Shown: positions 21,451-42,445 of the stretch, in pieces | How positions within the stretch are numbered: the first letter of the stretch is position 1 | Layout: each line of letters opens with the position of its first letter | Origin: Syncephalis plumigaleata | Lineage: Eukaryota > Zoopagomycota > Zoopagomycetes > Zoopagales > Piptocephalidaceae | Length of the DNA stretch: 64,000 nucleotides | Direction of reading: 5' to 3' | Assembly (NCBI GenBank): GCA_025201365.1 | Contig: JAIXMF010000003.1 | Span: forward strand, 1,054,001-1,118,000 | Notes under the pieces: generated by a model | Database searches by the model: none | The model's input: only the letters and a program-made list of their open reading frames with translations | What the model was told of the DNA's origin: nothing | Position numbers and translations under genes: made by a program

Positions 21451-24235
21451 CTAGGTGAAGAATAGCTGGGTGCGTAGATTGTTAGCAATAGGCACATAGG
21501 GTTGAACGGCCATGGATGTGCTAGTGCTGGTTGACACCATACTGCCCGTATCACTTGCAATGTCCTCTTTGACGTAATGACGCGCACGATCAGCCAGCAC
21601 GTGTGCCCAATAGACGGCAGGCACTAGACTGACACTACGAGTGCAGCGTGAAAACGTGTAACTCATACGATTTGTCATCTCCTGTACCGTATCCGGTTCC
21701 ATCTTGTTCTCATCGTATAGGACGACGTAATGCACAGGGTTACAAGTGCCCTGTATGCCTGCATGAGCTTGAAGGAAAAAGTCGTATAGACCCGGGTAGT
21801 GACGACACGATCGACCACCATGCCAGCCTTGCAGTTACCCGAATTATCCGTGGTTTGCGGTCCTGGTTGCGAAGCAAAGAAACGAGTATGATGTCGTTTC
21901 TTCGCCACGATAAACGTCAACTTTGGATTGTAATTGGCGCTCAATTGACGACACGCTTGCTTGATGCCTTCACTTCCGCATCGAGTACTAGATGGAACTG
22001 ACCATCCGACACGCCATCACGATAGAAGATGATACGCTTAGGCTCGTGTCCCGATTTACGACGGAAGTTAATGAGAATCTCCTTGGTCATCTCGCCATCT
22101 TCTCGATGATCTCCGTGTTACCCTCTTGCGTTCTATAGGTGCCATCGTAATTCGATAGGTGTAGATCCAACGAGCCGCACACCGTGGCAATCGACGGTTG
22201 TCCATGGCGACTTGCACTACCAGTAGGGTGTGATACATCAGCGCCCATGATAATGGTAGGTTCACTGGCTAGAATTGGAATGGATCGATCCGCTAATTTA
22301 CAATTCGTACCGCCCAATTTCTTGTTGACTTTAAGTGACATATTGCCACAATACTGAATGAGAGATAGATATCAATATATATAAATAAGCCGGCTTCATT
22401 AGAAAGGCGAGCTATAATGAGGATCGATTACATGTTATTACCTGAGCATTCTTCTTATAGATATGACTCGAGCGCATTCCTTGAGTTATTAAACCGAGTT
22501 TAGTCTCGGCCACCTTCTTGATTTTACCATACAAATCGGTAGTTTTCGAGAATACGACAAAGATCAATTGTGGTGCCGCGCGGAATTGCTTTTAGCCATC
22601 ATGAACGCTTCTTGCAACGGTTTCTCGGGGTCTCCGTTCATGTTAGCATAGGTGATCGGCGGGTTCTTCCCTACCACGTTGATGCCCTTATCTATGAACT
22701 GTCTCTCCATAAAGGTGAAAAAGTCTCTCACTTTATCGCGTGGACAGAACTTCTCTTGAGAGAACACGACCACAGCCCAGGAACCAGGGTTACCGGCACG
22801 AGCAATCGTTTGTTTTGTAGTGACCACGAGCCGTCCCTTGGCGCACAGTGGCATCTCTACCCGATGCAGGATTGTATAAAATCTTGGTGCATCTAGGACT
22901 CGTCCCGTCAATGACACCATTCTCGTGTCGACTGCCATGTTGAACTGTTTGAACGTGGCATCTCGGTTGAATCCCACTAGACTGTGACAGTCGTTGATCT
23001 TATTACGTCGTTGATACGGTTTCTCGCAGCATACTTGATCATTGCTGCAAGTTGTATATCACTTAGTTGATGCGGTACTCGTTGATTAGGCTCGATCATG
23101 CATACTTCTAAGGGGAAGAAGGTCTTTTTCTTAGTTACACTGCAATGGTAAGTGCGTAATCATAGTCATAATTAGTACATGATCCAGTTAAATGCTACCA
23201 GTTTCACACTTACATGCATGGCAATTGTGGATATCTTAGTCGATAGTTGTACTGCTTTGCAAAGTAAGCGGCAACATTCGTGGTCTGTCCAGTTTCGCCG
23301 ACATTGAACACCGTATCGCTAGCACCCTTAGGAGTCAACTTATCAATGATGCATCGCGGCTTAATACCCTGCCGATGCGTCACATGAACCTTGATTCTAG
23401 CTAGTGCGCGCACTAACACGTTTCTCTTGTCTCGTAGCTTATAGGATATATCCGTATAATCCCTGGCCTCTAACACTGCGCAGACGTAGTCCAACAATGG
23501 ACACGGGCGATAGAAGGCCTCGTAGTTGTATTGATGTTCAACATTAGATTGGATTCACCCGGTCGAACTGAGAGGGTGTAGCCGCGCCATGCGTCTAATC
23601 CTCCCGGTAATTGCATGCAATCCTCGCCCGTGTAGAGTGATCGACCAATGGACAAGAATCGGCTTGACGCCATATGACCCAGCAACACCTCTAATGCCAT
23701 AATGGGTTTAAGGAGTACATCTGGATCGCGTAGTTTACCAGAGTAATATGCTTCGATGGTTGCCATATTAACTCTTGTACTTTACGTAGAATAACCTTGA
23801 ATATGCGTGGTTTCCCTTACCACCACCACCACCACCACCAGATTCAGGCAATGTGACCTAAATAATTAATAGCAATAAATGGATTATAGATGGTTAGCGT
23901 AATTTCCACGATATAATATAATATATAGCTATAACATGATAAATACCTCTACACTTAATGCATCGCCTACTGCCAGTGGATGTGGTGAAAATGCAGTTGC
24001 CATGCCATCATAGGCTAGAACAGCTTTGCCTAGTTTGCTCTTGTGTATGACTTGCAATTGTGCAATAACTTGTCGCTTCGTTTCCTTCTCCTTGACCTCT
24101 TTGTCGGTACTGATCTTCACGTCAAAGTGTATGAGGTTGCCTTTAGGCAAGGAGGTCAGTGTGTAATGATTGGCCAAGACTTGTATAGGTCGACCTGCCT
24201 TGCCGTAACCAGGACGACGTAGCAACTGTTGCGAC
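21451..24235 (-). CDS. AGO: Argonaute (Ago clade), slicing tetrad present
   Basis: This is the RNA-guided core protein of RNA interference. The start at 24235 ([12 protein letters not shown]) leads into the N domain ([16 protein letters not shown]). A Gly run encoded by (GGT)n at about 23819-23838 lies in this region. The linker and PAZ domain follow (VGRSLYTG-like [41 protein letters not shown]). The MID domain is near 22950-22560. The PIWI domain shows [26 protein letters not shown] and [14 protein letters not shown], which supply the D-E-D-H tetrad of slicer Argonautes. KRHHTRFF and HAGIQGT are also typical. Introns fall at about 22340-22440, 23140-23215 and 23880-23946. Frame changes at about 22580, 23520 and 23800 fit missing bases in short runs. 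The sequence is close to animal-type Ago, as in early-diverging fungi. Confidence 0.93.
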
Positions 24236-24929
24236 ATGCTGACACGCGTTACAATAAGCAGCTATAGTGCGTGTAGTTTACAAAGTAAAAACTGGTTTAC
24301 GAATAGACACGGTAATATGAAGATACGACGAGAGAAGAGTAGGTGAAAACAGGTGGAATGTAGGAGGGGAAAGAAAAAAAGGAGGAGAAACAATGTGAGT
24401 TGAAAGACACTTTGTTGTGATAGGCAAGAAGAGGAGAAGGATATTTAAACATTTGCCATTCACCATTTGATAGTACATAGACAGCGCTATTCATTTGTTC
24501 CAAGCGAGCAGACTGCATTGTTCTATCATTGGTACTGTGATTGTTCCTCATTTCCATTTAGTAGTGCTGACTTCTTGGCATTTATCACTTCAATGGCAAT
24601 CTAATCATAGTGTGACTGATGATAACGTCATCATGGAACTGGTTTGAACTCGCACGCAAAGAACAACGAGTAATGTGTCAATCTTCTATTAGTCGTTGAA
24701 GTACCAATAGTTACTATTGGTGAGACTTCAAGTGTGTGCGCGACTGTACGTGTCACAACATTACGTGTCACATGGAGGACTTGCAGATAAATTGACAGAT
24801 ATGCTTCATTCAGCGGTATTCAATAGTCACAAGCATAAATTTATTAATTGTAACTCGCGTTGTAACAATATATACTATACTTTTATCAACACGATAAATA
24901 AGAATCTATCATGCAGGAATAGAGGTCGC
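24236..24929. other. Intergenic region between Argonaute start and kinase-like gene A
   Basis: No gene was supported. It holds a purine-rich tract near 24355-24390. It should contain the Argonaute promoter and the 3' end of kinase-like gene A. Confidence 0.5.
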
Positions 24930-26306
24930 CTAGTTCAATCTAACAATTCTATGTTGTCCTGCACTTAGTTGTTCTAGTATGCGTGTATTATACTGATTGT
25001 GCTCCAGGAACTCCTCTGGTGTAAGCCGTCTTTTATGATTCGTGTCTAGGAGAAGTTTCAGTACGTCGATTATATGCCCTGAAATAGGACGTCCACCAGG
25101 ATACATATTGCTTGGAGGCACATGTATGTCTTCTTATTCATGGCCTTCAAAGCCTGCTTGAAATACACGCGATCGTAGCTGTTGCCTCGGCCTATAAGCT
25201 CACCGGTAACCACTCTTCCGGATAGAATACGGTAAAACATTGCTCCTATCGACCAGGTCGCGCTCTTTAGTAAATTGATCTTTCCCCATAGCCTCGCTTC
25301 CGGTGGCGTATACTCCAGAACACGGCCCGGATAGTAGCCTTTAGGTGGCTTTTTCAAATCAGGATTAAATAGCGTACTCGTGTCGAAATCAACAAGCTTA
25401 ATGGAGGGATGGCCATACGGTCCTAATGTAACGATAACATCTGAGGAAACGAGCATTAGTATACTGTAGCAAATAAAAGTTTCGTTGTAATTTCCCCCTC
25501 ACTAACCTTCAGGTTTAATGTCGTTATAAGCTATTCCCGCCTTGTGAAGGAACTTTATAGCTACGCCAATTTTTGTTAGTAGCATTCGTGCAATTATTAA
25601 GCAATACTTACCATCCAACAATTGGAAAATCAACTGATACGTTCTATATTCCACCTCGCCATTCGGTAAACTACGAATGTAGTCCTCCAGTGTTCGTTCG
25701 CCGGCGTACTCGGTAACGATACACGTACCAAATGAAGGCACTACAGAATTGATCCAACCGGTTAGAATGGACTTCTTGAGCCAAGCCGCCAACCTATATG
25801 GTATGCCTATTTTGAAGCTATGCAAATAGTTGACAAAATAATGTCTGGCGAAATCGTTGCTTCTAATCCTAGCCTTGCTAAGAACCTATACATACGTCAA
25901 AAGAAGATTAGACATGCTTGACAAATGTAAACGCGAACCACTTGCCTTATTCACTTTTTCATCTCGTTTTATGCTTCGTGAATGATAAGAACACTTGACA
26001 AATACGCCTTTATCATAGTATCTCGCCGATGCCATTACGGATAATTTACCATAGCCAATGATCTTTTTGATTTCTAAGCCTCTCTCAAGTTCATCCGGCT
26101 TATGAACAGGTAGCGTGATCCATTTGCTTGTTTCATCAACATCTATTTTCGTATAGTTAGCATAACCACGAAACTGTACAACAATACCATTGCTACCAAC
26201 CATGTGCAGGTACAAAGTTGACAGGAGTTGCAAATACCCGTCGAGCACATAGAATAGCAACCAAGCAGCCAATAATGGCAGAACTGCTGAATGCTATTAA
26301 CCTCAT
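24930..26306 (-). CDS. Secreted kinase-fold protein, copy A (catalytic Asp kept)
   Basis: Five exons: 26306-26201, 26142-25946, 25885-25612, 25560-25507 and 25440-24930. The first encodes a predicted signal peptide (MRLIAFSSSAIIGCLVAILC, then ARRVFA before TPVNF). Kinase-fold landmarks follow: glycine loop IGYGKLSVMASA, Lys in VFVKCSY, a helix-C candidate Glu in KRDEKVNK, AYNDIKPED at the HRD loop, DFD in place of DFG, and TPPEARLW at the APE site. The Asp of HRD is retained, so catalysis is possible. Intron 2 has a GC donor (GCAAGT...TATAG) and is confirmed by the identical exon plan of copies B-D. The last exon has one frame change near 25110-25125; adding one base gives a length in the same phase as the paralogues. 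The substrate is unknown. It is the most divergent copy of the cluster. Confidence 0.8.
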
Positions 26307-26704
26307 GATGCGATCTATCAAATGCAGTTAATAGCAACAAGTATAGCCTCTAATCAAAATGTAACGCGTAATGCTATCAGTTAAAATAAGCGGCAAGTTA
26401 TATGGTAAAGGAATAATTAAAAAAACAATAGCTTAGGAATGGCAGTCAGTTGGCATGATCATGACCGGATATACGCCTCTTTATAATGACGATGAACGCT
26501 CTCTTTGGCAGTTATGAAGAAAATAAAATGTGATGCTCACCTACTATGTCTACGATAAGCAGCACGTGTCCTACCTACTATATGATATGTGGATTGCCCG
26601 GAAAAGGTACAAAACCCACGACATACAAACGGAATTATGACAACATTAAACGATGCTTTTTATTTTTTATTTTGACTCATGAATTGGCATGACGATTATA
26701 TTGG
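26307..26704. other. Upstream region of kinase-like gene A
   Basis: No gene was supported. This stretch is not part of the tandem repeat and has no obvious match to the upstream regions of copies B-D. It ends where the first 3.4-kb repeat unit starts. Confidence 0.5.
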
Positions 26705-27002
26705 CTCATTTGTAAGTGTTGTCGTTGATTAGTACTATACGAATACATGACTTGGTATTTGTACGCTCAATCTTTCTTAAGCTTGAATATTGCCATGCAT
26801 TCCAATCAAACGGTATACACAGCCATTACATCTATCTAATCATTTTAATATATGAATATATCATTGACACCAATAAAGTGTATCAATTGAAAGCAGCTTT
26901 ATTGCTATGCATTATATCGACTGATAACAAGCAGCTAGATCCATTGTATCTGACATTTGCTTATAATTTATCATGAACATTGATCATGGCAATAGCGTAT
27001 CG

Positions 27003-28366
27003 TTAATTACGAGGGCGCACTACAAGCTGCATCTGTGCAGGATGTCGCATATCAGCTGGTCTATTGAGATATTCCTCTGCTGTTGGTCGATCGGCCACCT
27101 TAGGAGCCAAGAGCACCTTTAGTAAATCAGTTAGGTAGGGTGCAACAGCACCATCATCATTTCCGTATTTCGTGACCGGTGGAGGAGTAAGTTTACCGCT
27201 TATGTAATCTTTTTTATATCTCTCAATATCAAATCCCAGTGGTTGAGTTCTACTTGCATAGTTGTGTCCATGCGCATTTAGAGTAGCATCTAAAACGCTT
27301 TTACCAGTTATAAGCTGGAAGAGTCTTGCACCAATATACCAAGTGTCGGCCCTTCGCATACTAGTCCACCTCCAGTTTCCGAACTCGGGTGGTAAACTAT
27401 CAACATCTTGATTCATCACTTTTCCTACAAGTGGCATGCCTCCTCTGAACATAACACTCATGTCAAAGTCAATAAGCTTGATACGTGGATTACCATTTGC
27501 ATCCTGCGTTACAATGATATCTAGTATGATGCATATTAGTAATTAGCAAGTCATAATATCCATACTGCACTTACCTGAAGATTTCATGTTGTTATAGATA
27601 ATCTTATTCTTATGGAGGAGTCTATGGGCTATACAAATAATGTTAAGGATCACGTATGCAATAGGAATAATTGACATTGACTCACCTTTGAGAAGCTGAA
27701 TAGCTATATCGTAGATAATACGATCCCGATTGTTGGCATTCAGTGTCTCAACGAATTTATCCAATGATACATCTCCAGCATACTCCATAACCATGCATCG
27801 ACCAAACTTAATGAATGGGATTGTCTTGGGCAAGAAACCAGGTCTGACACTCTTGACTGATTCTGAAGTTGCATGTGGCAAACCAGTGTCGAATGTCTTT
27901 ATGTGATCCACAAAGTATTGGCCATCTTGAGGATTTGTTTTTCTGGCCTCGGCAATTGCCTAGTAATAGTACGTTAGTCATAATATTAAACTATCATGAT
28001 GGCGTATTATTACCTTCAATATTTTGGCCTCTCCTCTGCCCATACCAAAGTAACTGCATTTAATAAATCTTTCTTGGTTATTATATGTGGCAACGCCCAT
28101 TGCTGAACCAATACCATAGCCGATAGCTTTTGTAACCGTGAGACCTGGATGAAGCTTGCCCTCTATGCCCACTGGCAATGTAACCCATCTATCTGACACG
28201 TCATCGTTTGCTAATTCAATGGAGGTTAGAACAGTAATAGTCTAGTATATCAATACTAACCACGTGCACGTTCGAAATTTACCGGTGTTCCCAATGCCTG
28301 CTGAATATATGCGACAGCAACCAAAGTGGAAACAAGAACGGTGCTACTGAGCGATAAAGACTTCAT
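27003..28366 (-). CDS. Secreted kinase-fold protein, copy B (predicted pseudokinase)
   Basis: Five exons: 28366-28261, 28210-28014, 27959-27686, 27628-27575 and 27520-27003, together 1,149 nt for 382 residues with an open frame throughout. The N-terminus MKSLSLSSTVLVSTLVAVAY with IQQALG is a strong signal peptide. Kinase-fold landmarks: glycine loop IGYGIGSAMGVA, Lys in RFIKCSYF, Glu in RGEAKILK, IIYNNMKSSD at the catalytic loop, LIDFDMS at the DFG site and LPPEFGNW at the APE site. The HRD Asp is Asn (YNN), so normal phosphotransfer is unlikely. The C-lobe helix reads ADTWYIGARLFQLITG. Introns are 50-60 nt with CTAAC-type branch sites. Copy C looks identical over the coding region. Substrate or host target unknown; a secreted decoy, scaffold or effector role is inference. 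Confidence 0.85.
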
Positions 28367-28996
28367 GGTGAAAGTGTTGGATCTGGACGACAGTTGCTTG
28401 TAACTTGGCTCCTCGAATAGTGTAAGCTCGTTAACAATAATAAAGATTGTAATAAAGAGTGAAGTGAATGGTTTAATAAGCTGTATGAGGTGTAATCGTA
28501 AAGAGGAATGGTGATAAACTATAGCTTACTGTTGACAGATATCCGTTTATTTATATTTCTGCGATATTTTTTTGCTTTGTATGCTTCAATGATGAGTAGT
28601 CAATAAATCTATACTATGACCATAATTAGGGTTCAACATGCAAATGTAAACAGTATTTGGCAATGGGATCATGGTATAAAATGTGGTGAATTCTATTTGT
28701 TTCATGTAGCACGAGTGTTGGATTGACCATTTCGCATCTATTACTAGTTTGTTTCGAGTATGCTTGCAGAAGAGCATTGTAGCATTGCATTTTTGCGTCT
28801 AAGGAGAACAGTATACGATTTTGGCAGTGGCACACATGTCATACCGAAATGAGTGTAGCTGAATTTAAATCCACGTTTTACATCCATATTTTGCCATCTC
28901 ATTAGCAATGACATGTATTGATTCAGTATGGAATCCTATTGTCATATTATATTTGGTATACACATCGTGTAGGAGCATTACTAGTTATGTCTTTTC
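28367..28996 (-). promoter_or_regulatory. Conserved upstream region of kinase-like gene B
   Basis: About 630 bp directly upstream of the gene B start are highly similar to the 630 bp upstream of gene D (40477-41106), with long exact stretches, although the two genes differ more inside their exons. It contains the AT-rich block TTTATATTTCTGCGATATTT near 28550-28566. Conservation suggests shared control, but recent common descent alone could also explain it. Confidence 0.5.
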
Positions 28997-30406
28997 CTAA
29001 TTGCTTTGATGTAAAAGCTAGCTTAGCGACTCTACCAAGGAGCTCTTACAGTGCGCGCTGCGGAGAATTCTGGAATTCTGGAAAGGAGTGGAAGGACATT
29101 GAGTGGATTAAACACGCAACATAATAATACACGGCCCAACGACTCTCGATAACCACTCACTTCAATAACTCAAACGATCATATCCCTGTATTCTATTTTA
29201 TCTCATATGATAATTCATTTGAATGTTGTCCAATAGGTTTATTATAATAAAATACGCTACAACAACATTAAAAGAAAAAGGCTGGCTTACCGACTCATGC
29301 TTTTCCCTTGTAATCCTTATTAAGGAAGATGTCAACGAGAAGATGTCAAAACATTGGAGAGAAAGACGGCAGACATGTTGCAGGCTTAAAGGTGGATTCC
29401 AACGAGATGACAGCAAAAGGCCGTCACCAGTTATTCCAGCACTTCCGATAGAATGCAATTCGGTGAATAGCAGCGAAAAGTACTTCAAACTAGGAAGAAG
29501 GGCAACATGTCTACACCTATAGCCCGCACGTATGACTTCTCAAATGGGATGAACTACGGAGCAACTATCAACTAGACGAGGATGTATCTCCGTATCATGC
29601 ACAGCTAATGTGTTGATATCAAAACAGAGAACTAATGGTTGCGCCGACAATACATGAACACTGCAGTAATAGAACATGATAGCAGTATGTTCCATGACTA
29701 GATCTACTCGGGGATTTGATCGTAATCAATGAATGACCAATAAATTCTTAAAAAGCTAGTGTCATGCTAGGAAAGAGCATCAACCATCCGCTATCGACTC
29801 ACTACACACACTTCAACAATGAATGACAGCATTCCATCGATGAAGTTTTGGAAATGGCAATGACATTTTACAAATCGAAACTGCATTGTGTGCATTGAAT
29901 CATTGCCATATATTTTTGTTTCGTTCTACATTTCTTACTTGTATAGAATGAGCCAATAAACAAACTGATTCTTCTATAACTGCATGAAGATCGATGGCTA
30001 ATCAATTGAATGTATCTAGTAGTTCTATTCGATTACATTCCTGTCGTGACATAACATTTCAATAACAGTATAATCATTATTAATCCATATCATGGATCAA
30101 TAATTAGCTCATTTGTAAGTGTTGTCGTTGATTAGTACTATACGAATACATGACTTGGTATTTGTACGCTCAATCTTTCTTAAGCTTGAATATTTGCCAT
30201 GCATTCCAATCAAACGGTATACACAGCCATTACATCTATCTAATCATTTTAATATATGAATATATCATTGACACCAATAAAGTGTATCAATTGAAAGCAG
30301 CTTTATTGCTATGCATTATATCGACTGATAACAAGCAGCTAGATCCATTGTATCTGACATTTGCTTATAATTTATCATGAACATTGATCATGGCAATAGC
30401 GTATCG
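28997..30406. other. Spacer between kinase-like genes B and C
   Basis: No gene is supported. ORFs of 60-100 codons occur on both strands at 29198-29522, but none has a recognisable domain and they overlap each other. The right part from 30108 is the start of repeat unit 2 and includes the 3' flank of gene C. Confidence 0.5.
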
Positions 30407-33400
30407 TTAATTACGAGGGCGCACTACAAGCTGCATCTGTGCAGGATGTCGCATATCAGCTGGTCTATTGAGATATTCCTCTGCTGTTGGTCGATCGGCC
30501 ACCTTAGGAGCCAAGAGCACCTTTAGTAAATCAGTTAGGTAGGGTGCAACAGCACCATCATCATTTCCGTATTTCGTGACCGGTGGAGGAGTAAGTTTAC
30601 CGCTTATGTAATCTTTTTTATATCTCTCAATATCAAATCCCAGTGGTTGAGTTCTACTTGCATAGTTGTGTCCATGCGCATTTAGAGTAGCATCTAAAAC
30701 GCTTTTACCAGTTATAAGCTGGAAGAGTCTTGCACCAATATACCAAGTGTCGGCCCTTCGCATACTAGTCCACCTCCAGTTTCCGAACTCGGGTGGTAAA
30801 CTATCAACATCTTGATTCATCACTTTTCCTACAAGTGGCATGCCTCCTCTGAACATAACACTCATGTCAAAGTCAATAAGCTTGATACGTGGATTACCAT
30901 TTGCATCCTGCGTTACAATGATATCTAGTATGATGCATATTAGTAATTAGCAAGTCATAATATCCATACTGCACTTACCTGAAGATTTCATGTTGTTATA
31001 GATAATCTTATTCTTATGGAGGAGTCTATGGGCTATACAAATAATGTTAAGGATCACGTATGCAATAGGAATAATTGACATTGACTCACCTTTGAGAAGC
31101 TGAATAGCTATATCGTAGATAATACGATCCCGATTGTTGGCATTCAGTGTCTCAACGAATTTATCCAATGATACATCTCCAGCATACTCCATAACCATGC
31201 ATCGACCAAACTTAATGAATGGGATTGTCTTGGGCAAGAAACCAGGTCTGACACTCTTGACTGATTCTGAAGTTGCATGTGGCAAACCAGTGTCGAATGT
31301 CTTTATGTGATCCACAAAGTATTGGCCATCTTGAGGATTTGTTTTTCTGGCCTCGGCAATTGCCTAGTAATAGTACGTTAGTCATAATATTAAACTATCA
31401 TGATGGCGTATTATTACCTTCAATATTTTGGCCTCTCCTCTGCCCATACCAAAGTAACTGCATTTAATAAATCTTTCTTGGTTATTATATGTGGCAACGC
31501 CCATTGCTGAACCAATACCATAGCCGATAGCTTTTGTAACCGTGAGACCTGGATGAAGCTTGCCCTCTATGCCCACTGGCAATGTAACCCATCTATCTGA
31601 CACGTCATCGTTTGCTAATTCAATGGAGGTTAGAACAGTAATAGTCTAGTATATCAATACTAACCACGTGCACGTTCGAAATTTACCGGTGTTCCCAATG
31701 CCTGCTGAATATATGCGACAGCAACCAAAGTGGAAACAAGAACGGTGCTACTGAGCGATAAAGACTTCATGGTGAAAGTGTTGGATCTGGACGACAGTTG
31801 CTTGTAACTTGGCTCCTCGAATAGTGTAAGCTCGTTAACAATAATAAAGATTGTAATAAAGAGTGAAGTGAATGGTTTAATAAGCTGTATGAGGTGTAAT
31901 CGTAAAGAGGAATGGTGATAAACTATAGCTTACTGTTGACAGATATCCGTTTATTTATATTTCTGCGATATTTTTTTGCTTTGTATGCTTCAATGATGAG
32001 TAGTCAATAAATCTATACTATGACCATAATTAGGGTTCAACATGCAAATGTAAACAGTATTTGGCAATGGGATCATGGTATAAAATGTGGTGAATTCTAT
32101 TTGTTTCATGTAGCACGAGTGTTGGATTGACCATTTCGCATCTATTACTAGTTTGTTTCGAGTATGCTTGCAGAAGAGCATTGTAGCATTGCATTTTTGC
32201 GTCTAAGGAGAACAGTATACGATTTTGGCAGTGGCACACATGTCATACCGAAATGAGTGTAGCTGAATTTAAATCCACGTTTTACATCCATATTTTGCCA
32301 TCTCATTAGCAATGACATGTATTGATTCAGTATGGAATCCTATTGTCATATTATATTTGGTATACACATCGTGTAGGAGCATTACTAGTTATGTCTTTTC
32401 CTAATTGCTTTGATGTAAAAGCTAGCTTAGCGACTCTACCAAGGAGCTCTTACAGTGCGCGCTGCGGAGAATTCTGGAATTCTGGAAAGGAGTGGAAGGA
32501 CATTGAGTGGATTAAACACGCAACATAATAATACACGGCCCAACGACTCTCGATAACCACTCACTTCAATAACTCAAACGATCATATCCCTGTATTCTAT
32601 TTTATCTCATATGATAATTCATTTGAATGTTGTCCAATAGGTTTATTATAATAAAATACGCTACAACAACATTAAAAGAAAAAGGCTGGCTTACCGACTC
32701 ATGCTTTTCCCTTGTAATCCTTATTAAGGAAGATGTCAACGAGAAGATGTCAAAACATTGGAGAGAAAGACGGCAGACATGTTGCAGGCTTAAAGGTGGA
32801 TTCCAACGAGATGACAGCAAAAGGCCGTCACCAGTTATTCCAGCACTTCCGATAGAATGCAATTCGGTGAATAGCAGCGAAAAGTACTTCAAACTAGGAA
32901 GAAGGGCAACATGTCTACACCTATAGCCCGCACGTATGACTTCTCAAATGGGATGAACTACGGAGCAACTATCAACTAGACGAGGATGTATCTCCGTATC
33001 ATGCACAGCTAATGTGTTGATATCAAAACAGAGAACTAATGGTTGCGCCGACAATACATGAACACTGCAGTAATAGAACATGATAGCAGTATGTTCCATG
33101 ACTAGATCTACTCGGGGATTTGATCGTAATCAATGAATGACCAATAAATTCTTAAAAAGCTAGTGTCATGCTAGGAAAGAGCATCAACCATCCGCTATCG
33201 ACTCACTACACACACTTCAACAATGAATGACAGCATTCCATCGATGAAGTTTTGGAAATGGCAATGACATTTTACAAATCGAAACTGCATTGTGTGCATT
33301 GAATCATTGCCATATATTTTTGTTTCGTTCTACATTTCTTACTTGTATAGAATGAGCCAATAAACAAACTGATTCTTCTATAACTGCATGAAGATCGATG

Positions 33401-33511
33401 GCTAATCAATTGAATGTATCTAGTAGTTCTATTCGATTACATTCCTGTCGTGACATAACATTTCAATAACAGTATAATCATTATTAATCCATATCATGGA
33501 TCAATAATTAG
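30108..33511. repeat. Tandem repeat unit 2 (3,404 bp) carrying kinase-like gene C
   Basis: Direct tandem copy of unit 1. The left junction (CATGGATCAATAATTAG before CTCATTTGTAAG) is repeated exactly at the right junction at 33511, as expected for a true head-to-tail array or for an assembly duplication. Confidence 0.9.
30407..31770 (-). CDS. Secreted kinase-fold protein, copy C (twin of copy B)
   Basis: Five exons at 31770-31665, 31614-31418, 31363-31090, 31032-30979 and 30924-30407. Protein and introns are the same as in copy B, 3,404 bp away. It has the same signal peptide, the same YNN in place of HRD and the same DFD. No difference from B was found in the coding region, so either the duplication is very recent or copies are kept equal by gene conversion, or the assembly repeated one locus. 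Confidence 0.85.
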
Positions 33512-33810
33512 CTCATTTGTAAGTGTTGTCGTTGATTAGTACTATACGAATACATGACTTGGTATTTGTACGCTCAATCTTTCTTAAGCTTGAATATTTG
33601 CCATGCATTCCAATCAAACGGTATACACAGCCATTACATCTATCTAATCATTTTAATATATGAATATATCATTGACACCAATAAAGTGTATCAATTGAAA
33701 GCAGCTTTATTGCTATGCATTATATCGACTGATAACAAGCAGCTAGATCCATTGTATCTGACATTTGCTTATAATTTATCATGAACATTGATCATGGCAA
33801 TAGCGTATCG
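31771..33810. other. Upstream and spacer region of copy C, plus 3' flank of gene D
   Basis: No gene is supported. The sequence repeats 28367-30406. From 33512 it is the start of a partial third repeat unit. Confidence 0.6.
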
Positions 33811-34000
33811 TTAATTACGAGGGCGCACTACAAGCTGCATCTGTGCAGGATGTCGCATATCAGCTGGTCTATTGAGATATTCCTCTGCTGTTGGTCGATC
33901 GGCCACCTTAGGAGCCAAGAGCACCTTTAGTAAATCAGTTAGGTAGGGTGCAACAGCACCATCATCATTTCCGTATTTCGTGACCGGTGGAGGAGTAAGT
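33512..34000. repeat. Partial tandem repeat unit 3 (489 bp), ends inside gene D
   Basis: Sequence is the same as the first 489 bp of unit 2, covering the 3' flank and the last part of the final exon. The identity stops sharply at 34000 (GTAAGT then AAACCG against TTACCG), where gene D becomes clearly divergent. This marks a crossover or conversion border. Confidence 0.85.
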
Positions 34001-34279
34001 AAACCGTTACTGAAATCCTTCAAAAAATTTATAAGACCACCTCCTGATCTTCTATTACTAGTAGCATATCGCTCTGCATACATATCTACAGTATCTTCTG
34101 TAACGATGCTACCAGTTATAAGCTGGTAAAGTCTTGCACCAATATACCAAGTGTCAGCCTTTGGCATACTAGTCCACCCATATTTTGCGTATTCTGGTGG
34201 TGAATTGCGCAAATCTTGATTCTTCATTTTCCCTACAAGTAGCTTGCCTTCTTTGAACATAACACTCGTGTCAAAGTCA

Positions 34280-34284
34280 ATAAG
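34280..34284. repeat. Target-site duplication ATAAG, left side
   Basis: ATAAG lies directly before the left LTR and again directly after the right LTR (39344-39348). Copies B and C have the unoccupied site (GTCAATAAGCTTG), which confirms a 5-bp duplication. Confidence 0.95.
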
Positions 34285-34474
34285 TGTAACGACCTCACAT
34301 GCACACACGAATTCGAAAAGTAAGATATCGTTTTTTATTAATAAAAGTATAATCGTATTTATAATTGCTTATGCTTACTAATTCTCTGTAAACGAAGATG
34401 TAAATATACTCACGCTTCGGTAGTGGTTACCGAGCTTTTCCCATAAGAATATAAATAAAAATTGTTTCGTTACA
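34285..34474 (-). repeat. LTR (3' LTR of the element)
   Basis: 190 bp, begins TGTAACG and ends CGTTACA, with TG...CA ends. It appears identical to the other LTR. Confidence 0.95.
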
Positions 34475-34485
34475 CCTCCCTCCTT
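34475..34485 (-). other. Polypurine tract of the LTR element
   Basis: On the minus strand this reads AAGGAGGGAGG directly next to the 3' LTR, the usual place and composition of the plus-strand primer. Confidence 0.75.
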
Positions 34486-37400
34486 AGATTGATGCCGACT
34501 CGGCATTATCATTAAAAGCTTGAACTAGCTCTTTAGCATTTGCTAGATCGTCCGTGGATTGCCATGTCATCTCGTGGTCTGCGTATCCTTTCCATTTGAC
34601 TAAGTATTGTGTCTTACCGCGTCTTGTACGTTTACCGACGATTGCTTCAACTTCGTATTCTTCTTCGTTATTAATAATAATTGGTGGAGGGGGAGGCGGA
34701 TATCGGTTAGCGAATTCGACGGGATTGTTTTCGTACGGTTTTAATAAACTAACGTGGAATACATTATGTATTCTCATGCTATCTGGTAATTGCAATTTGT
34801 ACGCTACCGTCGATACACGCTCGATGATTTTGTAAGGGCCTGTAAATTGATGCGACAACTTACGCTTAGGTCGATCACGACTTACTTCCGGTGTCAAGTT
34901 CTTAGTTGATAGTAGAACTTGTGTACCAACCTCGAATTCCACTTCTCGTCGCTTTTGATCTGCATGTTGCTTTTGTCGTTCTTGTGCCGTTTCCAGCGCA
35001 TCCCGTGTCGTTAAATAAATATCGTTCAACTTCTGTAAAAAGGTTGCTGTGCTTTCTATGTTAGTGTCTTTGTTGAAATCGTGACGTCGAGCTAGGTCGT
35101 CAGGCATGTAGGGATGATGGCCTAAATCGGTGTAAAAGGGCGAGTAACCGGTCGATGATTGTTTAGCGTTGTTGTAAGCGAATTCAACAAGTGCCAAGTG
35201 CTGATCCCAATCATTTTGTTGATGGTTAACACATGTACGCAGAAGTTGTTCCAATGTGCGATTGGTGCGTTCCGTCTGGCCGTCTGTCTCGGGGTGGAAG
35301 GCTGTAGACATAAGTATGCGAACGTCGAGTATCTTGTGTAATTCCTGCCAGAATTTGCTTGTGAATTTCGCATCGCGGTCGCACACAATCGAACGGGGCA
35401 TACCATGTAAACGCATGATGTTGTTGACAAACAGCTGCGCAACGTCAACTGCAGTCGCCGTCGTCTTCATAGGTATGAAGTGGGCTCGTTTCGTGAAACG
35501 ATCTACGACGACGAAGATAGCGTCATAACCTGCCTTAGTACGCGGTAATTGTACTATGAAATCCATGGAAATGTCGCGCCATCTTCCTTCTGGTATTGGT
35601 AAAGGTTGTAGAAGACCACCAGGTAACTGCTGCGAGTGTTTCGTGCGTTGACATATCTCACAAGATTTGATATATCGTTTAACCATGCTTGATAGACCGG
35701 GCCAATAGTATTTGCGTTTGATTGCCGCTATTGTCTTTTCTTCACCGAAATGTGCAGCTAGTGGTGCATCGTGATGGTCGTTGAATATATCTAAATAAAG
35801 ATCATCGTACTTGGGGATGCATAGCCTTGGTTCTATTCCTTTCATTTCATAAATTAGCCCATAATCGTCACACCTGAAATGTCGTAATATCTTTCGCGTT
35901 GTCTTATTACTAATTTTCTTCCCTCCCAACAAAACAGACTTTACACCCGTAAAGTAATCGTCATGATCGTAACCTGTTAGGATTCGTTGCTGGAAGGTGG
36001 TGAGATCGACTGAGTATAACGTGTTGCAGATGTCGGCCATACGACGAGACAACGCGTCCGCTACGACGTTAGTACGGCCAGGTTTGTAAACGATATCGAT
36101 ATCATACCCGCGCAGGAGTGTAAGCCAACGTGATTGTCGCGCTAATAGTACATTTTGTTGTTTAAGTAGGTGTGTGAGTGGCTCATGGTCTGTATAGAGA
36201 ACAAAACGGCCATAGCTGAGGTAAGGGCGCCATAGACGCACCGCTGTAAGTGCTGCTAACATTTCCTTGTCATACGCAGCGTATTTCTTCTCGGCAGTTT
36301 GTAGTGTACGCGACATGAAAGCAATAGGGTGTTCGATGTCATCTATCTCTTGTGATAATACAGCACCGATTGCGTAATCAGATGCATCGGTAGTGACAAT
36401 GAATGGTACGGTAACATCAGGTATCGCTAAGACAGGTGCAGTGACTATAGCTTTACGCAATGTATCGAACGCTAATTGTTGTGCTTCCCCCCATGTAAAC
36501 GGTACATCCTTCTTAGTCAATTGACTTAGATGTCGTGCAATATCAGCATACCCACGAATAAACCGTCTATAATAACCGGTTAATCCCAAGAATGATCGTA
36601 ATTCTTTTAAATTACTGGGTATTGGCCAATTAGTAATGGCCGTTACCTTATCATGTAGTGGTTTTATACCCTCGCAACCAATATTATGTCCCAAGAATTC
36701 CACCTCCTCTTTACCGAACTCACACTTGCTCAGTTTCGCATAAAGCTTATGTTCCCGTAACAGTTCTAATACCTGTCTCAAATGCAATTCATGTTCCGCA
36801 TGATTTTTACTAAATACAAGTATATCATCTAGGAATATCACTACACATTTGTCTAACAATTTGTGAAACACGTTTTGCATTAAACGCATAAATACAGAGG
36901 GCGCGTTAGTTAGACCGAATCCCATTACTGTCCACTCGTAATGCCCATAGCGTGTTCTAAACGCTGTCTTGTGAATATCATCCTCATGTACTCTAATTTG
37001 ATGATATCCACTTCTCAAGTCGATCTTTGAGAACACCTTAGCCCCATGTAGTTGATCAAACAATTCGTCGATCAACGGTAACGCATAACGATCACGTATC
37101 GTTTGCGCATTTAGCATTCGATAATCCACACACATTCGCAAATCACCCCCTTTCTTTTTAACAAACAGTACAGGTGCACCAAATGGTGATGTACTTGGCC
37201 TAATAAAGCCTTTTTCTAACAAATCATCTAATTGTCTTTTTAACTCATCTAATTCTTTCTTTGCTAAATGATAGGTGGGCCTGAATGGTGGCTGCTGATG
37301 TGGGATTAGATTGATACGTATATCAATATCGCGCTTAGGCGGTAATCCCGGCGGTAACTCGTCAGGTCCCACATCTGCAAACTCACTCAATAATCGAGCA

Positions 37401-37894
37401 TAGCGCCCGTGCAATGGATTATTATTTTCTTTTGCCTCTTTTGTTTCTTGTACCATTGCTAATAAAAATATATCATCATCTTTTAACTTCTTAACCTCTG
37501 CTAATGTCATCAAAGTGGATTCAACGCTGCGATGATTTGATTGCTCAACCGTGGAATTGGCCATTGATTCAATGATGCCAGAACTCCAATCTATTTGTGC
37601 CTCGTGTCTTCGTAACCATGGCATACCTAGTATTGCGTCATAATTGCCCAATTTCATTATAGTGAAGTCAACACTTTCTTCAAAATGATTGTAGACTGTA
37701 GGCACTTTATTTGCAACACCAGATACGCTACATTCCGCACCATTACCCAATTTTACGTTTGATCGCTTGGCTGTTGTATTCACATGTACTTGTGCTTTTC
37801 CAGCAAATTCTGTGTCCATGAAATTTGCAGATGCGCCTGAATCGATAAGTACATGGGCAGTAACACCGTTAATGATAGGTGTTACCGTGAGCAA
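34484..37894 (-). CDS. pol: Pol polyprotein of the Ty3/Gypsy element
   Basis: 1,136 residues. Protease [10 protein letters not shown] near residue 16; reverse transcriptase with FLDDILVF; RNase H with [14 protein letters not shown]; integrase with an HHCC zinc finger (HH...CEICQRTK) and the core residues in [15 protein letters not shown] and [15 protein letters not shown]-terminal chromodomain ([20 protein letters not shown]). The chromodomain marks the chromovirus branch and is known in the family to steer integration toward certain chromatin. Confidence 0.96.
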
Positions 37895-38004
37895 TCCGGA
37901 ACTAGTGTTTCCTTGGATGAGCGAGAACAGCTCGAATCCAGGTGGGATCTTGGGTGTTGGAGTAGTAGCGGCGACCTGGCCGTCAGTAATAACGCCGCAT
38001 TCGA

Positions 38005-38838
38005 TTACTGACGGTCGTCGTTTCCCTGGTTGTCGTCCGCGTTCGGTGGGTGTTGTATGTTATTGGCTTGTTGTTGATTGTTGTTGAAGTTACGATTGTT
38101 GTTGTAATTGCGGTTGTTGTTGAAGTTACGGTTATTATTGTTGCGGTTGCGACAATTCCGAGCTATGTGACCGCGTCCATTACACTCATAGCATCGTATG
38201 GCGTTGTTGTTGTTGTTGTTACGATTGTTGCGGATTCCTAGGCTGTTTAAAGCTTGCGCTAACACGTCCAAGTCCATAGGTACCGGTCCGTTTTGTGGTT
38301 TAGGTTGGGCTCGCGCTAATTGTTGTAATCCATGCTTCCTTGAATAATAAAAAGCTCTTGTTACCGTGAAAGCCTCGTTAATATTGTGAACATTGTTCCG
38401 GAATGAATCAGCTAAGTACTCGGGTGGCAAGGTGAGACGGAACGATGTTACAAGCTCCATATCGCCTGCATCTGAAATTTTACTGCGTAGCGCGGTAAAT
38501 TGGGTGATATGTTCTTCGATGTCTTGATCTTCTGTCCAGCGTAGTCTGGTCAACTCTAAGCGCGCGATATCGGCGGATTTGTTACCGTTGAAACGGTCCA
38601 TAATACCGTTTCTCATTTCTTGCCATGTGGTGTACGGTGTGGCTCCTCCTCGTATTGATTGGTACCAGACAGCAGCGGCACCAGATAGTTGTTGAGCTGC
38701 TATCACCAATTTCTGAGCATCGGTCCATTCTCCTAGCGTCCATGCATCATCAACCATGTTACACCAATGATCCACTGGAATCGAGGAATCACCGGTGAAC
38801 TTCTCGGTGTGGGTGAGTGGTGATCGAGCGGGATTCAT
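38005..38838 (-). CDS. gag: Gag protein of the Ty3/Gypsy element
   Basis: 277 residues. It has the retrotransposon gag core ([18 protein letters not shown] region) and one CCHC zinc knuckle ([14 protein letters not shown]) followed by an Asn/Arg-rich tail of the NNNRNFNN type. It lies upstream of pol in a separate frame. Confidence 0.92.
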
Positions 38839-38913
38839 GATGTAATAATCTGATGTTACGTAGATGGTGAATTCAAGAATCTTGGACGACTGGAACTGGA
38901 ATATTATTGCTAA

Positions 38914-39120
38914 GCGACTAACGCAATGACGGTGCGACTAACGCAATGTAACGGTACGACTAACGCAGTGACGGTGCGACTAACGCAATGTAACGGTACG
39001 ACTAACGCAATGACGGTGCGACTAACGCAATGTAACGGTGCGACTAACGCAATATAGCAGTGCGACTAACGCAGTATGACAGTACGACGAACGTAAAAAT
39101 AGCAATGCGACTAACGCAAA
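38914..39120. repeat. Minisatellite of about ten 20-23-bp units in the element's leader
   Basis: The unit core is GCGACTAACGCA followed by a variable tail (ATGACGGT or ATGTAACGGT). About ten units, alternating between two tail types for the first six, then degenerating. It sits between the primer-binding site and gag. Confidence 0.9.
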
Positions 39121-39140
39121 TAGGGCGATGGAAAGTAGGT

Positions 39141-39152
39141 CCGTTGCTACCA
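39141..39152 (-). other. Primer-binding site, initiator-tRNA-like
   Basis: One base after the 5' LTR the minus strand reads TGGTAGCAACGG. This is complementary to a tRNA 3' end ...GCTACCA, which fits initiator methionine tRNA, a common primer in this family. The host tRNA is not in the window. Confidence 0.65.
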
Positions 39153-39153
39153 A

Positions 39154-39343
39154 TGTAACGACCTCACATGCACACACGAATTCGAAAAGTAAGATATCGT
39201 TTTTTATTAATAAAAGTATAATCGTATTTATAATTGCTTATGCTTACTAATTCTCTGTAAACGAAGATGTAAATATACTCACGCTTCGGTAGTGGTTACC
39301 GAGCTTTTCCCATAAGAATATAAATAAAAATTGTTTCGTTACA
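39154..39343 (-). repeat. LTR (5' LTR of the element)
   Basis: 190 bp, no difference from the other LTR was found. Followed by the second copy of the ATAAG target site at 39344-39348. Confidence 0.95.
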
Positions 39344-39878
39344 ATAAGCTTGATATGTGGTTTACCATCTGCATCCTGTTTTACAATAATATCTAGTATG
39401 ATGCATATTAGTAATTAGCAAGTCATAATATCCATACTGCACTTACCTGAAGATTTCATGTTGTTATAGATAATCTGATTCTGATGAAGAAGTCTATGGG
39501 CTATACAAATAATGTTAGGGATCACGTATGCAATAACAATGATTGTCATTGACTTACCTTTGAGAAGCTGAATAGCTATATCGTAGATAAAACGATCCCG
39601 ATTGTGGACATTTAGTGTCTTAATGTAATTATCCAATGACATATCTCCTGCATACTCCATAACCATGCATCGACCAAAGTCAAGATATGGGATTTTCTTG
39701 GGTAAGAAACTAGGTCTATACTTCTTGATAAATTCTGCAGTTGCAGATGGTAAACCAGTCTTGAATGTCTCTATGTGATCCACAAAGTATTGGCCATCTT
39801 GAGGATTCGTTTTTCTGGCCTCGGCAATTGCCTAGTAATAGTACGTTAGCCATAGTAATAAACAACCATGATGGTATA

Positions 39879-40111
39879 TGCAACAAGTAGACACACAAAA
39901 CCGTATATAATCGCAGCGTAATAAGTATAAGCTAATAACCTCTCACGGCAATTAACTATTGCCAATTGCGGTTGCTACTATCATTACTACATTATAATTT
40001 TGTTCAAATATTTTATTATAAATAAAGAAAGCCTCCGCCATAACAGCGGGAAGGGCATCATTCATACTCTAATCCTTATTGTCTAAGTAGCAGTAGCTTT
40101 CACTTGTTACA
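39879..40111. mobile_element. Solo-LTR-like insertion in intron 2 of kinase-like gene D
   Basis: A 233-bp block is present only in copy D and expands its second intron. It starts TGCAACAAGT and ends ACTTGTTACA (TG...CA with near-perfect inverted ends) and is flanked by a 5-bp duplication GTATA (39874-39878 and 40112-40116). TG...CA ends with a 5-bp duplication are what a solo LTR leaves; its sequence differs from the 190-bp LTRs nearby, so it belongs to another family. A MITE is the alternative. Confidence 0.75.
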
Positions 40112-40476
40112 GTATATTATTACCTTCAATATCTTGTCCTCTCCTCTGGCCACTCCATAGTATCCGCATTTTATGAATCTATCTTGATTATTATATCTTG
40201 CAACACCCATTGCTGAACCGGTACCATATCCGATAACTTTTGTAACCGTGAGACCTGGATGAAGCTTGCCCTCTATGCCCACTGGCAATGTAACCCATCT
40301 CTTTGATACGTCATCGTTTGCTAATTCAATGGAGGTTAGAACAGGTATAATTTAACATATCGATACTAACCAGTTGCAGGTTTGAAATTTACCGGTGTTC
40401 CCAATGCCTGCTGAATATATGCAACAGCAACCAATGTGGAAACAAGAACGGTGCTGCTGAATGATAAAGACTTCAT

Positions 40477-41106
40477 GATGCAATTGCTGGACCTTGACGA
40501 CGATTACTTGTAGCTTGGTTCCTCGAGTAGTGTAAGCTCGTTAACAATAATATAGATTGTAATAAAGAGTGAAGTGAATGGTTTAATAAGCTGTATGAGG
40601 TGTAATCGTAAAGAGGAATGGTGATAAACTATAGCTTACTGTTGACAGATATCCGTTTATTTATATTTCTGCGATATTTTTTTGCTTTGTATGCTTCAAT
40701 GATGAGTAGTCAATAAATCTATACTATGACCATAATTAGGGTTCAACATGCAAATGTAAACAGTATTTGGCAATGGGATCATGGCAGAAGAGGCAATAAG
40801 CTCCACTTGTTATATACAGCACGAGGATTGGATTGACCATTTCGCATTTACTACTAGTTTGTATCGAGTGTGCTAGCATTATAGCATTGTAGCATTGCAT
40901 TTTTGCGTCTAAGGAGAACAGTATACGATTTTGGCAGTGGCACACATGTCATACCGAAATGAGTGTAGCTGAATTTAAATCCACGTTTTACATCCATATT
41001 TTGCCATCTCATTAGCAATGACATGTATTGATTCAGCATGGAATCCTATTGGCATGCTACAGTTGGTATACACATCGTGTAGGAGCATTACTAGTTATGT
41101 CTTTTT
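40477..41106 (-). promoter_or_regulatory. Conserved upstream region of kinase-like gene D
   Basis: Homologous to 28367-28996 over 630 bp with long exact runs (for example about 40555-40780). Similarity stops near 41106. Confidence 0.5.
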
Positions 41107-41708
41107 TCTTTATTAGCTGGATATATCCCGCATATTACTGGTGTATACTGAACATGCCACTAAAGTGGTATCCCAGCATCACTATCAGCAAACTACACGG
41201 CAGGGCAACTTGATGTGCCGACTCTCGACAACGGGAACGCGTGACAAGCGACGGTTAATCGAATCATATGAATGAAGACGCATTGGCACGAATCTGTGTT
41301 GTCTGATTTGGATTTTTGTTCAAGGAAACAAACGATTGGTGGGTAAAATGGACTGGTTGTACTGGCGATGAACATGTGGAATGTGTTTATGGGACAGTAT
41401 CCTATCGTAATCACATATAAAATGGTGCAGGCATGTTTATTACAAACTAATCAATGGAGATACGACGAGCATTCATATTGTCAACGGGTAAAGTGCGACG
41501 CTGCTTAGTTAGCACAGGGTTTAACGTGATGGACTGATAGGCATTATCGCACAATAAACTAGTTACTAGATTGTCAAGTTCGATTGATTGATAACATGCA
41601 CTGTTTGTATTCTAAGCATTTTAATGCATACAATGTAATGTCAAACAAACTAACAGTACGTCGTTATTGTCATTAATTCAAAGATACAGCAATTCTAATA
41701 GTGGTTTA
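41107..41708. other. Intergenic region between kinase-like gene D and PFD1
   Basis: No gene was supported. The sequence does not belong to the repeat units. It includes the 3' end of PFD1. Confidence 0.5.
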
Positions 41709-42258
41709 TTAGGCACGTGGTGCAACTTCACGCAAGTTGGCGGCAATTTCCTTAACGCTACGTTCCAAGTAGGCGCGTTTCTTCTCCAGTACTTTAGCCT
41801 GCTCGCCCGACTCTTTACCTCGCGTGACTACCTCCTTCTTAACAGTTGGAAGGTCTGACAATATAAACCTAGTTATAGCAATTTATTAGTCGACCAATAA
41901 AGCAACTGGTGATTGATGCTGTAAAAACAAATAGGTAACATGATGCTTACATTTTTCCTACACTCTTGTAGACACGTACATCATCGGCCAGTGAGTCCAA
42001 TTCTCGTCCAACGATCGTCGATGTACGTTCCTCTCGCTCACACTTTTGCACTTGCGCGGTTACTTTTGCCAACTCACGCTGATCGTCTTGTAATTTTATT
42101 TGCATTTGTTGCATGGCAAGCAAAACCTAATCAATCAGATTGTAAATAATAAACGAATAAGTGAGAATTCCTTCTCTACACAGATTACACGAGAACCAAT
42201 AGTTCTCGTGTAGACTAAGAGCAAGTACCTTGTGCAAAGCAGCGTCAGGAAGCGACAT
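41709..42258 (-). CDS. PFD1: Prefoldin subunit 1
   Basis: Prefoldin is the hexameric cytosolic chaperone that passes unfolded actin and tubulin to the CCT chaperonin; this is one of its beta-type subunits. Three exons: 42258-42229, 42126-41951 and 41868-41709, together 366 nt for 121 residues, the usual family length (about 122). The first coiled coil is VLLAMQQMQIKLQDDQREL, the central hairpin VYKSVGKMFILSD matches the family's YxxVGRMFIL, and the second coiled coil ends KKRAYLERSVKEIAANLRE, matching KKxYLERSVKE. The start at 42258 is the only ATG that gives the expected N-terminus. The first intron is 102 nt and carries a strong hairpin. Confidence 0.93.
42186..42212. other. Perfect 11-bp hairpin inside PFD1 intron 1
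   Basis: TACACGAGAAC and GTTCTCGTGTA form an 11-bp perfect inverted repeat with a 5-nt loop (CAATA). It lies inside the 102-nt first intron, about 17 nt from the donor site in the transcript. Confidence 0.8.
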
Positions 42259-42445
42259 TATAAATAACTTTTGACAGATAGCTTTTTGCTGTTGATGATA
42301 AACTAAAGAAAAGAAGAGAAACGAATAAGAAGGATAATGTCAACTGGTAACTACATCGTAAAACAATCATCAGTAAAATTAGGCGAAATGAATCATCCAA
42401 TCACAGGACGATATTGCTTTATTACTAGCATTCTATACGTGCTAG

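Follow-up and report, generated by a model that had tools for sequence, protein, structure and literature searches.

Genes for putatively secreted kinase-fold proteins in the mycoparasite Syncephalis plumigaleata: a tandem cluster and its wider family

Results

Organization of the cluster

Syncephalis plumigaleata (Zoopagomycota, Zoopagales, Piptocephalidaceae) is a mycoparasite. The genus is called an obligate mycoparasite in the title of a work listed among the accessible references of PMC6784888, and the available text of a review states that Zoopagales mycoparasites form haustoria and have hosts belonging mostly to the Mucoromycota (PMC10386755). We analysed a 64,000-nucleotide stretch of its genome (positions 1054001-1118000 of contig C223, hereafter the window), in which four related gene bodies (A, B, C and D), all on the minus strand, occupy positions 24930-40476. 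An initial annotation, made from the sequence alone, had described these as four genes in a row on one strand, each encoding a secreted kinase-fold protein. The row of four same-strand gene bodies stands, but not as four working genes: A carries a frameshift, D is split, and B and C encode the same protein.

Exon lengths of 106, 197, 274 and 54 nt recur in all four genes, as initially described, the 197-nt exon of A requiring a GC-AG intron (the second intron, with a GC donor). The last exon of about 518 nt holds only for B and C, as it measures 511 nt in A and is divided into pieces of 49 and 474 nt in D, with a Gypsy-type long terminal repeat (LTR) element between them. In D, the intron preceding the 274-nt exon is also enlarged to 292 bp. 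B, like C, is open and has GT-AG introns; it encodes 382 amino acids, with a predicted signal peptide at about residues 1-26, a kinase fold at residues 53-377 and the motif YNN...D; its spliced product matches letter for letter the 382-residue NCBI protein P0001, named "kinase-like domain-containing protein [Syncephalis plumigaleata]". A encodes a signal peptide and a kinase fold with motifs YND...D and DFD. The frameshift lies in its last exon and ends the frame after 333 codons, versus about 380 for the whole reading, while the copy of A on contig C240 (other haplotype) has an open frame. With A and D both broken, and B and C not differing from each other, the cluster encodes a single intact distinct protein (B/C) in this haplotype.

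B and C lie, each with its upstream DNA, in two tandem units of 3404 bp, with no mismatch over the 3403 bases compared at offset 3404. The end of the C unit at the 3' side of the gene (403 bp, including 190 bp of coding end) recurs without mismatch at the end of D, whose last 190 nt are thus identical to those of B and C, while the exon portion just upstream of this shared stretch is only 79% identical between C and D over 227 nt. Such identity beside a diverged exon is the trace that unequal crossing-over or conversion between neighbours would be expected to leave. The element interrupting D is a young insertion, because its two LTRs (34285-34474 and 39154-39343) are identical at 190/190 bases and it is flanked on both sides by the target duplication ATAAG. 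Just inside one of these LTRs, positions 38910-39130 hold short tandem-like repeats (GACTAACGCAATG...). Inside a tandem unit, positions 29107-29279 hold a 173-bp dispersed repeat with about 24 near-full-length places elsewhere (90-95% identical) and some partial ones.

Contig C240 matches positions 24511-27998 at 94% identity (98% over the region of A) and runs on unbroken at 41090-42500 (97%). It carries an open A and a B-like gene without the 5' part (exons 1-2), but neither C nor D. We take C240 as allelic because its flanks are collinear; if so, two haplotypes within a single assembly have versions of the cluster that differ by 13 kb. Many small contigs look like the second haplotype of a larger contig (C24/C343, C362/C186 and C329/C327, for example). 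The assembly is partly diploid, and gene counts are therefore inflated unless contigs are paired.

Differences in cluster copy number and content between two haplotypes of one assembly would suit genes for self/non-self recognition between individuals or nuclei, a possibility raised in the initial annotation. The same pattern is, however, expected of effectors; no partner gene was noticed, nothing we found favours the idea in particular, and we know of no self-recognition system with exported kinases. We thus regard it as extremely unlikely.

Predicted secretion

A hydrophobic leader is present in each of the four genes, as proposed initially, and a simple rule places its cleavage between ALG and TP in B, C and D and between VFA and TP in A. 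The rule fits 14/14 family N-termini from 13 loci (B and C, being identical, counted once), versus 76 (14%) of the 546 ATG-led frames of at least 42 amino acids in the window, a background that includes overlapping frames and real genes. Ten of the 14 N-termini were taken from alignment to the whole of B, independently of hydrophobicity. The leaders at C124:165k and C124:167k were chosen by hydrophobicity, and the NCBI model for the latter (P0057) starts at the same leader. In nine N-termini the predicted cut falls after A or G and before TP or SP, the other sites being different.

Across the family, 29 of the roughly 36 loci have a recognisable leader. It is complete in most of them and damaged or incomplete at 1120k and 1462k of contig C223; most leaders of the C112/C351 cluster are known only as a leader-exon match in the genome search. 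The 5' end is missing at 847k, 901k and 970k of C223, and four loci were left unread for the leader (C223 at 953k and 706k, C2:157k and C112:960k). In all eight mature proteins tried, no 19-residue stretch exceeds 1.30 on the Kyte-Doolittle scale, in agreement with the absence of a membrane anchor noted initially, and none has an endoplasmic reticulum-retention (HDEL-type) end. By eye, no obvious host-delivery motif follows the leader. With a predicted signal peptide, a cleavage site and no evident anchor, these proteins would be expected to follow the classical secretory route.

Kinase fold and catalytic residues

The kinase fold is confirmed by Pfam: all seven proteins scanned pass Pkinase (PF00069) with 60-99 bits, against a cut-off of 31.7 (60.1 bits for B and 77.1 for the haplotype copy of A). 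Kinase motifs also follow one another along the sequence, together with an invariant pair of cysteines, and the predicted three-dimensional model has the fold of a kinase. As the confidence of this AlphaFold model depends on the other kinases in the alignment, our assignment of the fold also draws on Pfam and on the motifs in the sequence. No kinase sub-family was taken from Foldseek/VIA-align, the rows of which are assorted ordinary kinases (PknB, DAPK, CaMKII, ULK1 and JAK3).

Catalytic residues were compared across 24 family rows, eight of which form four haplotype pairs. The HxD Asp is kept in 18 rows and replaced by Asn in six, all of the B branch; the catalytic-loop Asn is kept in 13 and replaced by Asp in 11 (B branch, A, C24/C343 and C257). 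Among the 23 rows read at the DFG motif, 22 retain its Asp and 20 have Asp in place of its Gly. Lys, helix-C acid, HxD Asp, loop Asn and DFG Asp are kept together in 10 of the 24 rows. B/C keeps Lys and the DFG Asp but lacks two residues of active kinases, its HRD Asp being Asn and its loop Asn being Asp. Judging from these residues, B, C and D (YNN...D) are probably pseudokinases, although B/C could still bind nucleotide, whereas most outer members, with HxD...N and DFD, are probably active kinases. The rows in which Y replaces the HxD His group together on the tree (support 100/98), and the order from HxD...N through YND...D (A branch) to YNN...D (B branch) suggests a stepwise loss of catalysis.

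A pair of cysteines in the N-lobe

A Cys follows the beta-3 Lys in all 21 family rows reaching that site, and a beta-5 Cys is present in 24/24 rows. Three further sequences read directly (L063 and both copies of L064) have FIKC and the beta-5 Cys. Our controls were 168 kinases returned by the searches; having been selected because they resemble the family, they do not form a random sample. By motif scan, two of 119 readable controls have a Cys after the beta-3 Lys and 12 of 114 have one at the beta-5 place, while none of the 91 readable at both sites has both. The beta-3 Cys, not the beta-5 Cys, marks the family apart. Only one ordinary kinase of the same genome was readable (in L005), and it lacks the pair.

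Among nine mature proteins counted, six (mature B/C included) have these two cysteines only, and the other three have one more. The two are C87 and C156 of B, and in the model the strands carrying them span residues 85-93 and 151-160; assuming the strand register of PKA, the two cysteines presumably face each other on neighbouring strands. We infer a disulfide between beta-3 and beta-5, which would be fitted to secretion.

Family size and gene structure

The family extends well beyond the window. We searched the genome with six proteins, then with a member from contig C112, and aligned the fetched loci by spliced alignment. Loci were counted by hand, taking small contigs with matching layout as haplotypes (C84 and C341 being treated so without a layout check), so that the total of about 36 non-allelic loci is neither exact nor a census: 12 are B-like, three are A-like, 11 are others and 10 belong to the C112/C351 cluster (Table 1).

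Nine of 11 gene models are free of breaks (A' on C240, C343, C24, C13, C257, C186, C362, C327 and C329:840k). All nine have five exons, with phases 1,0,1,1 and a fourth exon of 54 nt, the others measuring 106-118, 188-215, 262-289 and 476-557 nt, and the six proteins of this set that were aligned to B are 23-35% identical to it. We read this shared exon plan as an indication that the five-exon members descend from a common ancestor. Introns are fewer in the aligned parts of the outer members L059, L060 and L062, and genes of the C112 cluster have three exons, the first again being a leader exon. At four places (C246:47737, C257:25792, C340:1113743 and C340:1181233), only the C-terminal ~100 residues of the C13:308k kinase are encoded (72-74% identity), and none of its other exons is matched; these are either fragments or a shared 3' element.

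The tree comprises the 24 family rows and four other sequences (three labelled bacterial and one without label); absent from it are the copies at 847k, 901k, 970k, 1120k and 1462k, the 3' part of D, and the C112 cluster except 990k. The A and B branches group with C24/C343 and C257 (support 100/98). Outer branches are long and poorly separated, and the program warns of long branches meeting. Besides S. plumigaleata proteins, the matches listed were other kinases; those with a named organism were bacterial plus one nematode, and no other fungus was named (one list holding the best 120 of 138). The homologue search needs shared 5-residue words, and one run scored only the 7999 candidates sharing most words. 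Because the search is word-based and coverage of Zoopagales in the database is uncertain, we make no claim that S. plumigaleata alone has this family.

Of the 12 B-like loci, only B and the identical C are open throughout, the rest showing frameshifts, 5' truncation or insertion in our models. Four 5'-truncated B-like copies (L039, L040, L042 and L046) have the same upstream join, and it seems that one truncated form was copied to several places. The B branch might thus be a mostly decaying family, spread by segmental duplication and transposons, in which only the one intact protein, B/C, would now have a role, all the more so as both haplotype copies of the C373:186k gene, which is of another branch, contain a stop. 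Several other branches are, however, open in both haplotype copies (C343/C24, C186/C362 and C327/C329). Moreover, over residues 1-210, the ratio of nonsynonymous to synonymous divergence from B (dN/dS) is 0.41-0.63 in eight of ten comparisons, the two exceptions being the truncated copies at 847k (1.12) and 901k (1.53); this part looks constrained, so that constraint has acted. We therefore consider decay an improbable account.

A hypervariable segment

Exon 5 is 76-88% identical to that of B among copies, mostly below the identity of introns (83-100%) and flanks (84-100%). Divergence concentrates in residues 261-340, where 23-25% of nonsynonymous sites differ from B in all five copies tested (of ten at hand), versus 6-11% of noncoding sites (Fisher p 2e-6 to 6e-14); over residues 341-382, only 0-4% of nonsynonymous sites differ. 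Synonymous sites are also raised in the fast segment, which points to exchange among diverged copies. We read residues 261-340 as a hypervariable segment that has probably been shuffled among copies and lies near helices F-G of the model. In kinases, the helix F-G region is a docking face.

Neighbouring genes

Downstream of A, the cluster is adjoined by an Argonaute gene on the minus strand (21451-24261, lower end placed by eye), with matches to ArgoN in 23929-24261 and to ArgoL2 and ArgoMid in 22564-23058. On the opposite side, near the breakpoint of the other haplotype, lies a minus-strand gene for a small coiled-coil protein, prefoldin-subunit-like by eye (41700-42280). A GH30-type glycosyl hydrolase gene is present at 17715-19154.

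Table 1. Features of the cluster (positions in the window) and related loci elsewhere in the genome (by contig)
Feature	Position	Strand	Remarks
Gene A	24930..26306	minus	exons 26306-26201, 26142-25946, 25885-25612, 25560-25507, 25440-24930
Gene B	27003..28366	minus	exons 28366-28261, 28210-28014, 27959-27686, 27628-27575, 27520-27003
Hypervariable segment of B	27132..27371	minus	residues 261-340; kinase C-lobe, around helices F-G (model)
Gene C	30407..31770	minus	exon pattern as B; protein identical to B; open
Gene D, 3' part	33811..34284	minus	474 nt of last exon beyond the inserted element
Gene D, 5' part	39344..40476	minus	exons 40476-40371, 40320-40124, 39831-39558, 39500-39447 and first 49 nt of last exon
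Tandem repeat unit 1	26791..30193		gene B and upstream DNA; identical to unit 2
Tandem repeat unit 2	30194..33597		gene C and upstream DNA
Gypsy-type LTR element	34285..39343	minus	in last exon of D; long gag-like and pol-like open frames, judged by eye
Stretch missing from other haplotype (C240)	27998..41090		C240 joins 27998 directly to 41090
B-like loci (12)	C223 at 847k, 901k, 953k, 955k, 970k, B, C, D, 1120k, 1462k; C329:1298k; C124:236k		
A-like loci (3)	A; C24:605k; C340:1135k		
Other loci (11)	C13:308k, C362:307k, C373:186k, C329:840k, C223:1784k, C124:165k, C124:167k, C223:706k, C2:155k, C2:157k, C112:990k		
C112/C351 cluster (10)	C112 at 604k, 960k, 962k, 965k, 987k, 1049k, 1059k, 1062k, 1264k; C351:408k		

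Discussion

The combination of signal peptide and kinase fold put forward in the initial annotation is supported by our analyses, and the cluster appears to be a recently amplified branch of a large exported kinase-fold family of S. plumigaleata. Each protein would be made with a signal peptide, enter the secretory pathway, fold as a kinase domain whose N-lobe is probably stapled by the beta-3/beta-5 disulfide, and leave the cell without a membrane anchor. B/C, as a probable pseudokinase, would then work by binding, the likeliest site of action being the interface with the fungal host and the hypervariable F-G face of the C-lobe serving as target-binding surface. An effector role, as initially suggested, is natural because the organism parasitises fungi. 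On balance, we lean towards the view that the family consists of kinase and pseudokinase effectors exported against fungal hosts. Our data show the genes, their motifs and leaders, the size of the family, its pattern of divergence and the haplotype difference, from which we infer secretion, the disulfide, the catalytic state and the host role.

Several observations weigh against this scenario. The leader rule is crude, and only three of the eight NCBI models start with the leader (P0001, P0002 and P0057). P0003, P0005 and P0006 derive from truncated or broken copies, and P0004 and P0058 place their start beyond a leader exon that the gene does possess, as they would if exon 1 were skipped or translation began downstream, leaving the proteins in the cytosol. 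We hold a cytosolic location to be very unlikely, as the leader exon is kept with the same phase, and the A/G-TP/SP cuts of nine N-termini recur, across proteins with 23-35% identity to B; the three models annotated with a leader start argue in the same direction. With six family proteins only, AlphaFold gives a poor model (mean predicted local distance difference test score, or pLDDT, of 37). In the profile alignment, 17 of the 35 controls filling the beta-5 column have a Cys there, so that the beta-5 Cys alone is not distinctive, and the DFG motif is changed in two outer members, to NFT at C223:1784k and to DLS at C124:167k. As for the fast segment, residues 261-340 show no significant excess of nonsynonymous over synonymous change, even where dN/dS exceeds 1 in single segments, and we do not claim positive selection from such values; mosaic exchange among copies appears to account for part of the divergence; and in the 1120k copy, outside the five-copy test, residues 211-382 diverge less (dN 0.13, dN/dS 0.59). 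Finally, the broken state of most B-branch copies can be read as decay no less than as the outcome of an arms race.

A serious rival is that these are exported or lumenal kinases acting on the fungus's own secreted proteins or wall rather than on a host, as FAM20C and VLK act on own secreted proteins in animals. Most outer members, which keep HxD...N and DFD and are probably active (10 of the 24 rows keeping all five residues), would suit such a function, as would the lack, by eye, of an obvious host-delivery motif after the leader. A family of about 36 loci that includes tandem clusters, has a hypervariable segment and differs by 13 kb between haplotypes would, however, be unusual for housekeeping kinases, and FAM20C is absent from the Pfam matches. 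We thus consider this rival rather unlikely, while giving it real weight.

If the effector interpretation holds, a large exported kinase family would provide a protein-based answer to the question of how Zoopagales mycoparasites control a living fungal host, along with a set of candidates, and would add parasitism between fungi to the settings in which exported kinases and pseudokinases are used. According to the available text of a review, Piptocephalis and Syncephalis genomes are poor in secondary-metabolite genes (PMC10386755). The family would also supply a sequence signature (Lys-Cys on beta-3, Cys on beta-5, and DFD) with which such kinases could be sought elsewhere, and the cysteine pair offers a testable idea of how the kinase fold may be adapted to the secretory pathway. 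Among the papers listed, none dealt with exported kinases of Syncephalis or Zoopagales, in a search that left subscription journals largely outside. In the portions of text accessible to us, "kinase" is absent from the main text of a study of fungal secreted protein structures (PMC9816061), neither "signal peptide" nor "secreted" occurs in a study of fungal kinomes (PMC2838846), and "kinase" occurs twice, both times for metabolic enzymes, in a report on single-cell genomes of mycoparasites including S. pseudoplumigaleata (PMC6784888).

Comparison with known systems

Among fungal kinases, FunK1 (PF17667) is passed by two of seven Syncephalis proteins (33.0 and 26.7 bits versus a cut-off of 24.1), but B scores only 12.0, and to our knowledge FunK1 proteins are not known for signal peptides. 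FAM20C and VLK are animal kinases working in the secretory pathway; the Pfam results for the seven Syncephalis members include no FAM20C match. The FIKK kinases of Plasmodium also form an exported, lineage-expanded kinase-fold family in a parasite. These are named for their beta-3 motif Phe-Ile-Lys-Lys, whereas in Syncephalis the residue after the beta-3 Lys is Cys in every row reaching that site, which sets the two motifs apart. The CRN8 protein of Phytophthora is likewise a secreted kinase-fold effector of a filamentous parasite, but it is described, in the text accessible to us, as a modular CRN protein with an N-terminal delivery motif (PMC3426532), of which we saw no equivalent by eye.

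The ROP kinases of Toxoplasma provide a parallel, ROP18 and ROP5 being members of an exported parasite family with both catalytically complete and degenerate kinase folds. According to the accessible parts of two papers, ROP5 is a tandem polymorphic cluster (PMC3426532) and a cofactor of an active kinase, its pseudokinases serving active relatives and binding their target away from the active site through a largely conserved surface (PMC3393671). In Syncephalis, by contrast, it is the fast segment that sits near helices F-G. Syncephalis is a fungus, not an apicomplexan, fungi have no rhoptries, and our data reveal no sequence relationship beyond that of the general kinase fold. With its ~36 loci, degenerate catalysis in the B branch, hypervariable face and haplotype variation, the family nonetheless resembles the logic of ROP18/ROP5. 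It is plausible, though we would put this more tentatively than an effector role as such, that Syncephalis has independently evolved an equivalent of the ROP arsenal, made of some thirty or more exported kinases and pseudokinases with one diversified C-lobe face and an N-lobe whose disulfide staple would make the fold stable in the oxidising environment outside the cell, and used to control the signalling of another fungus.

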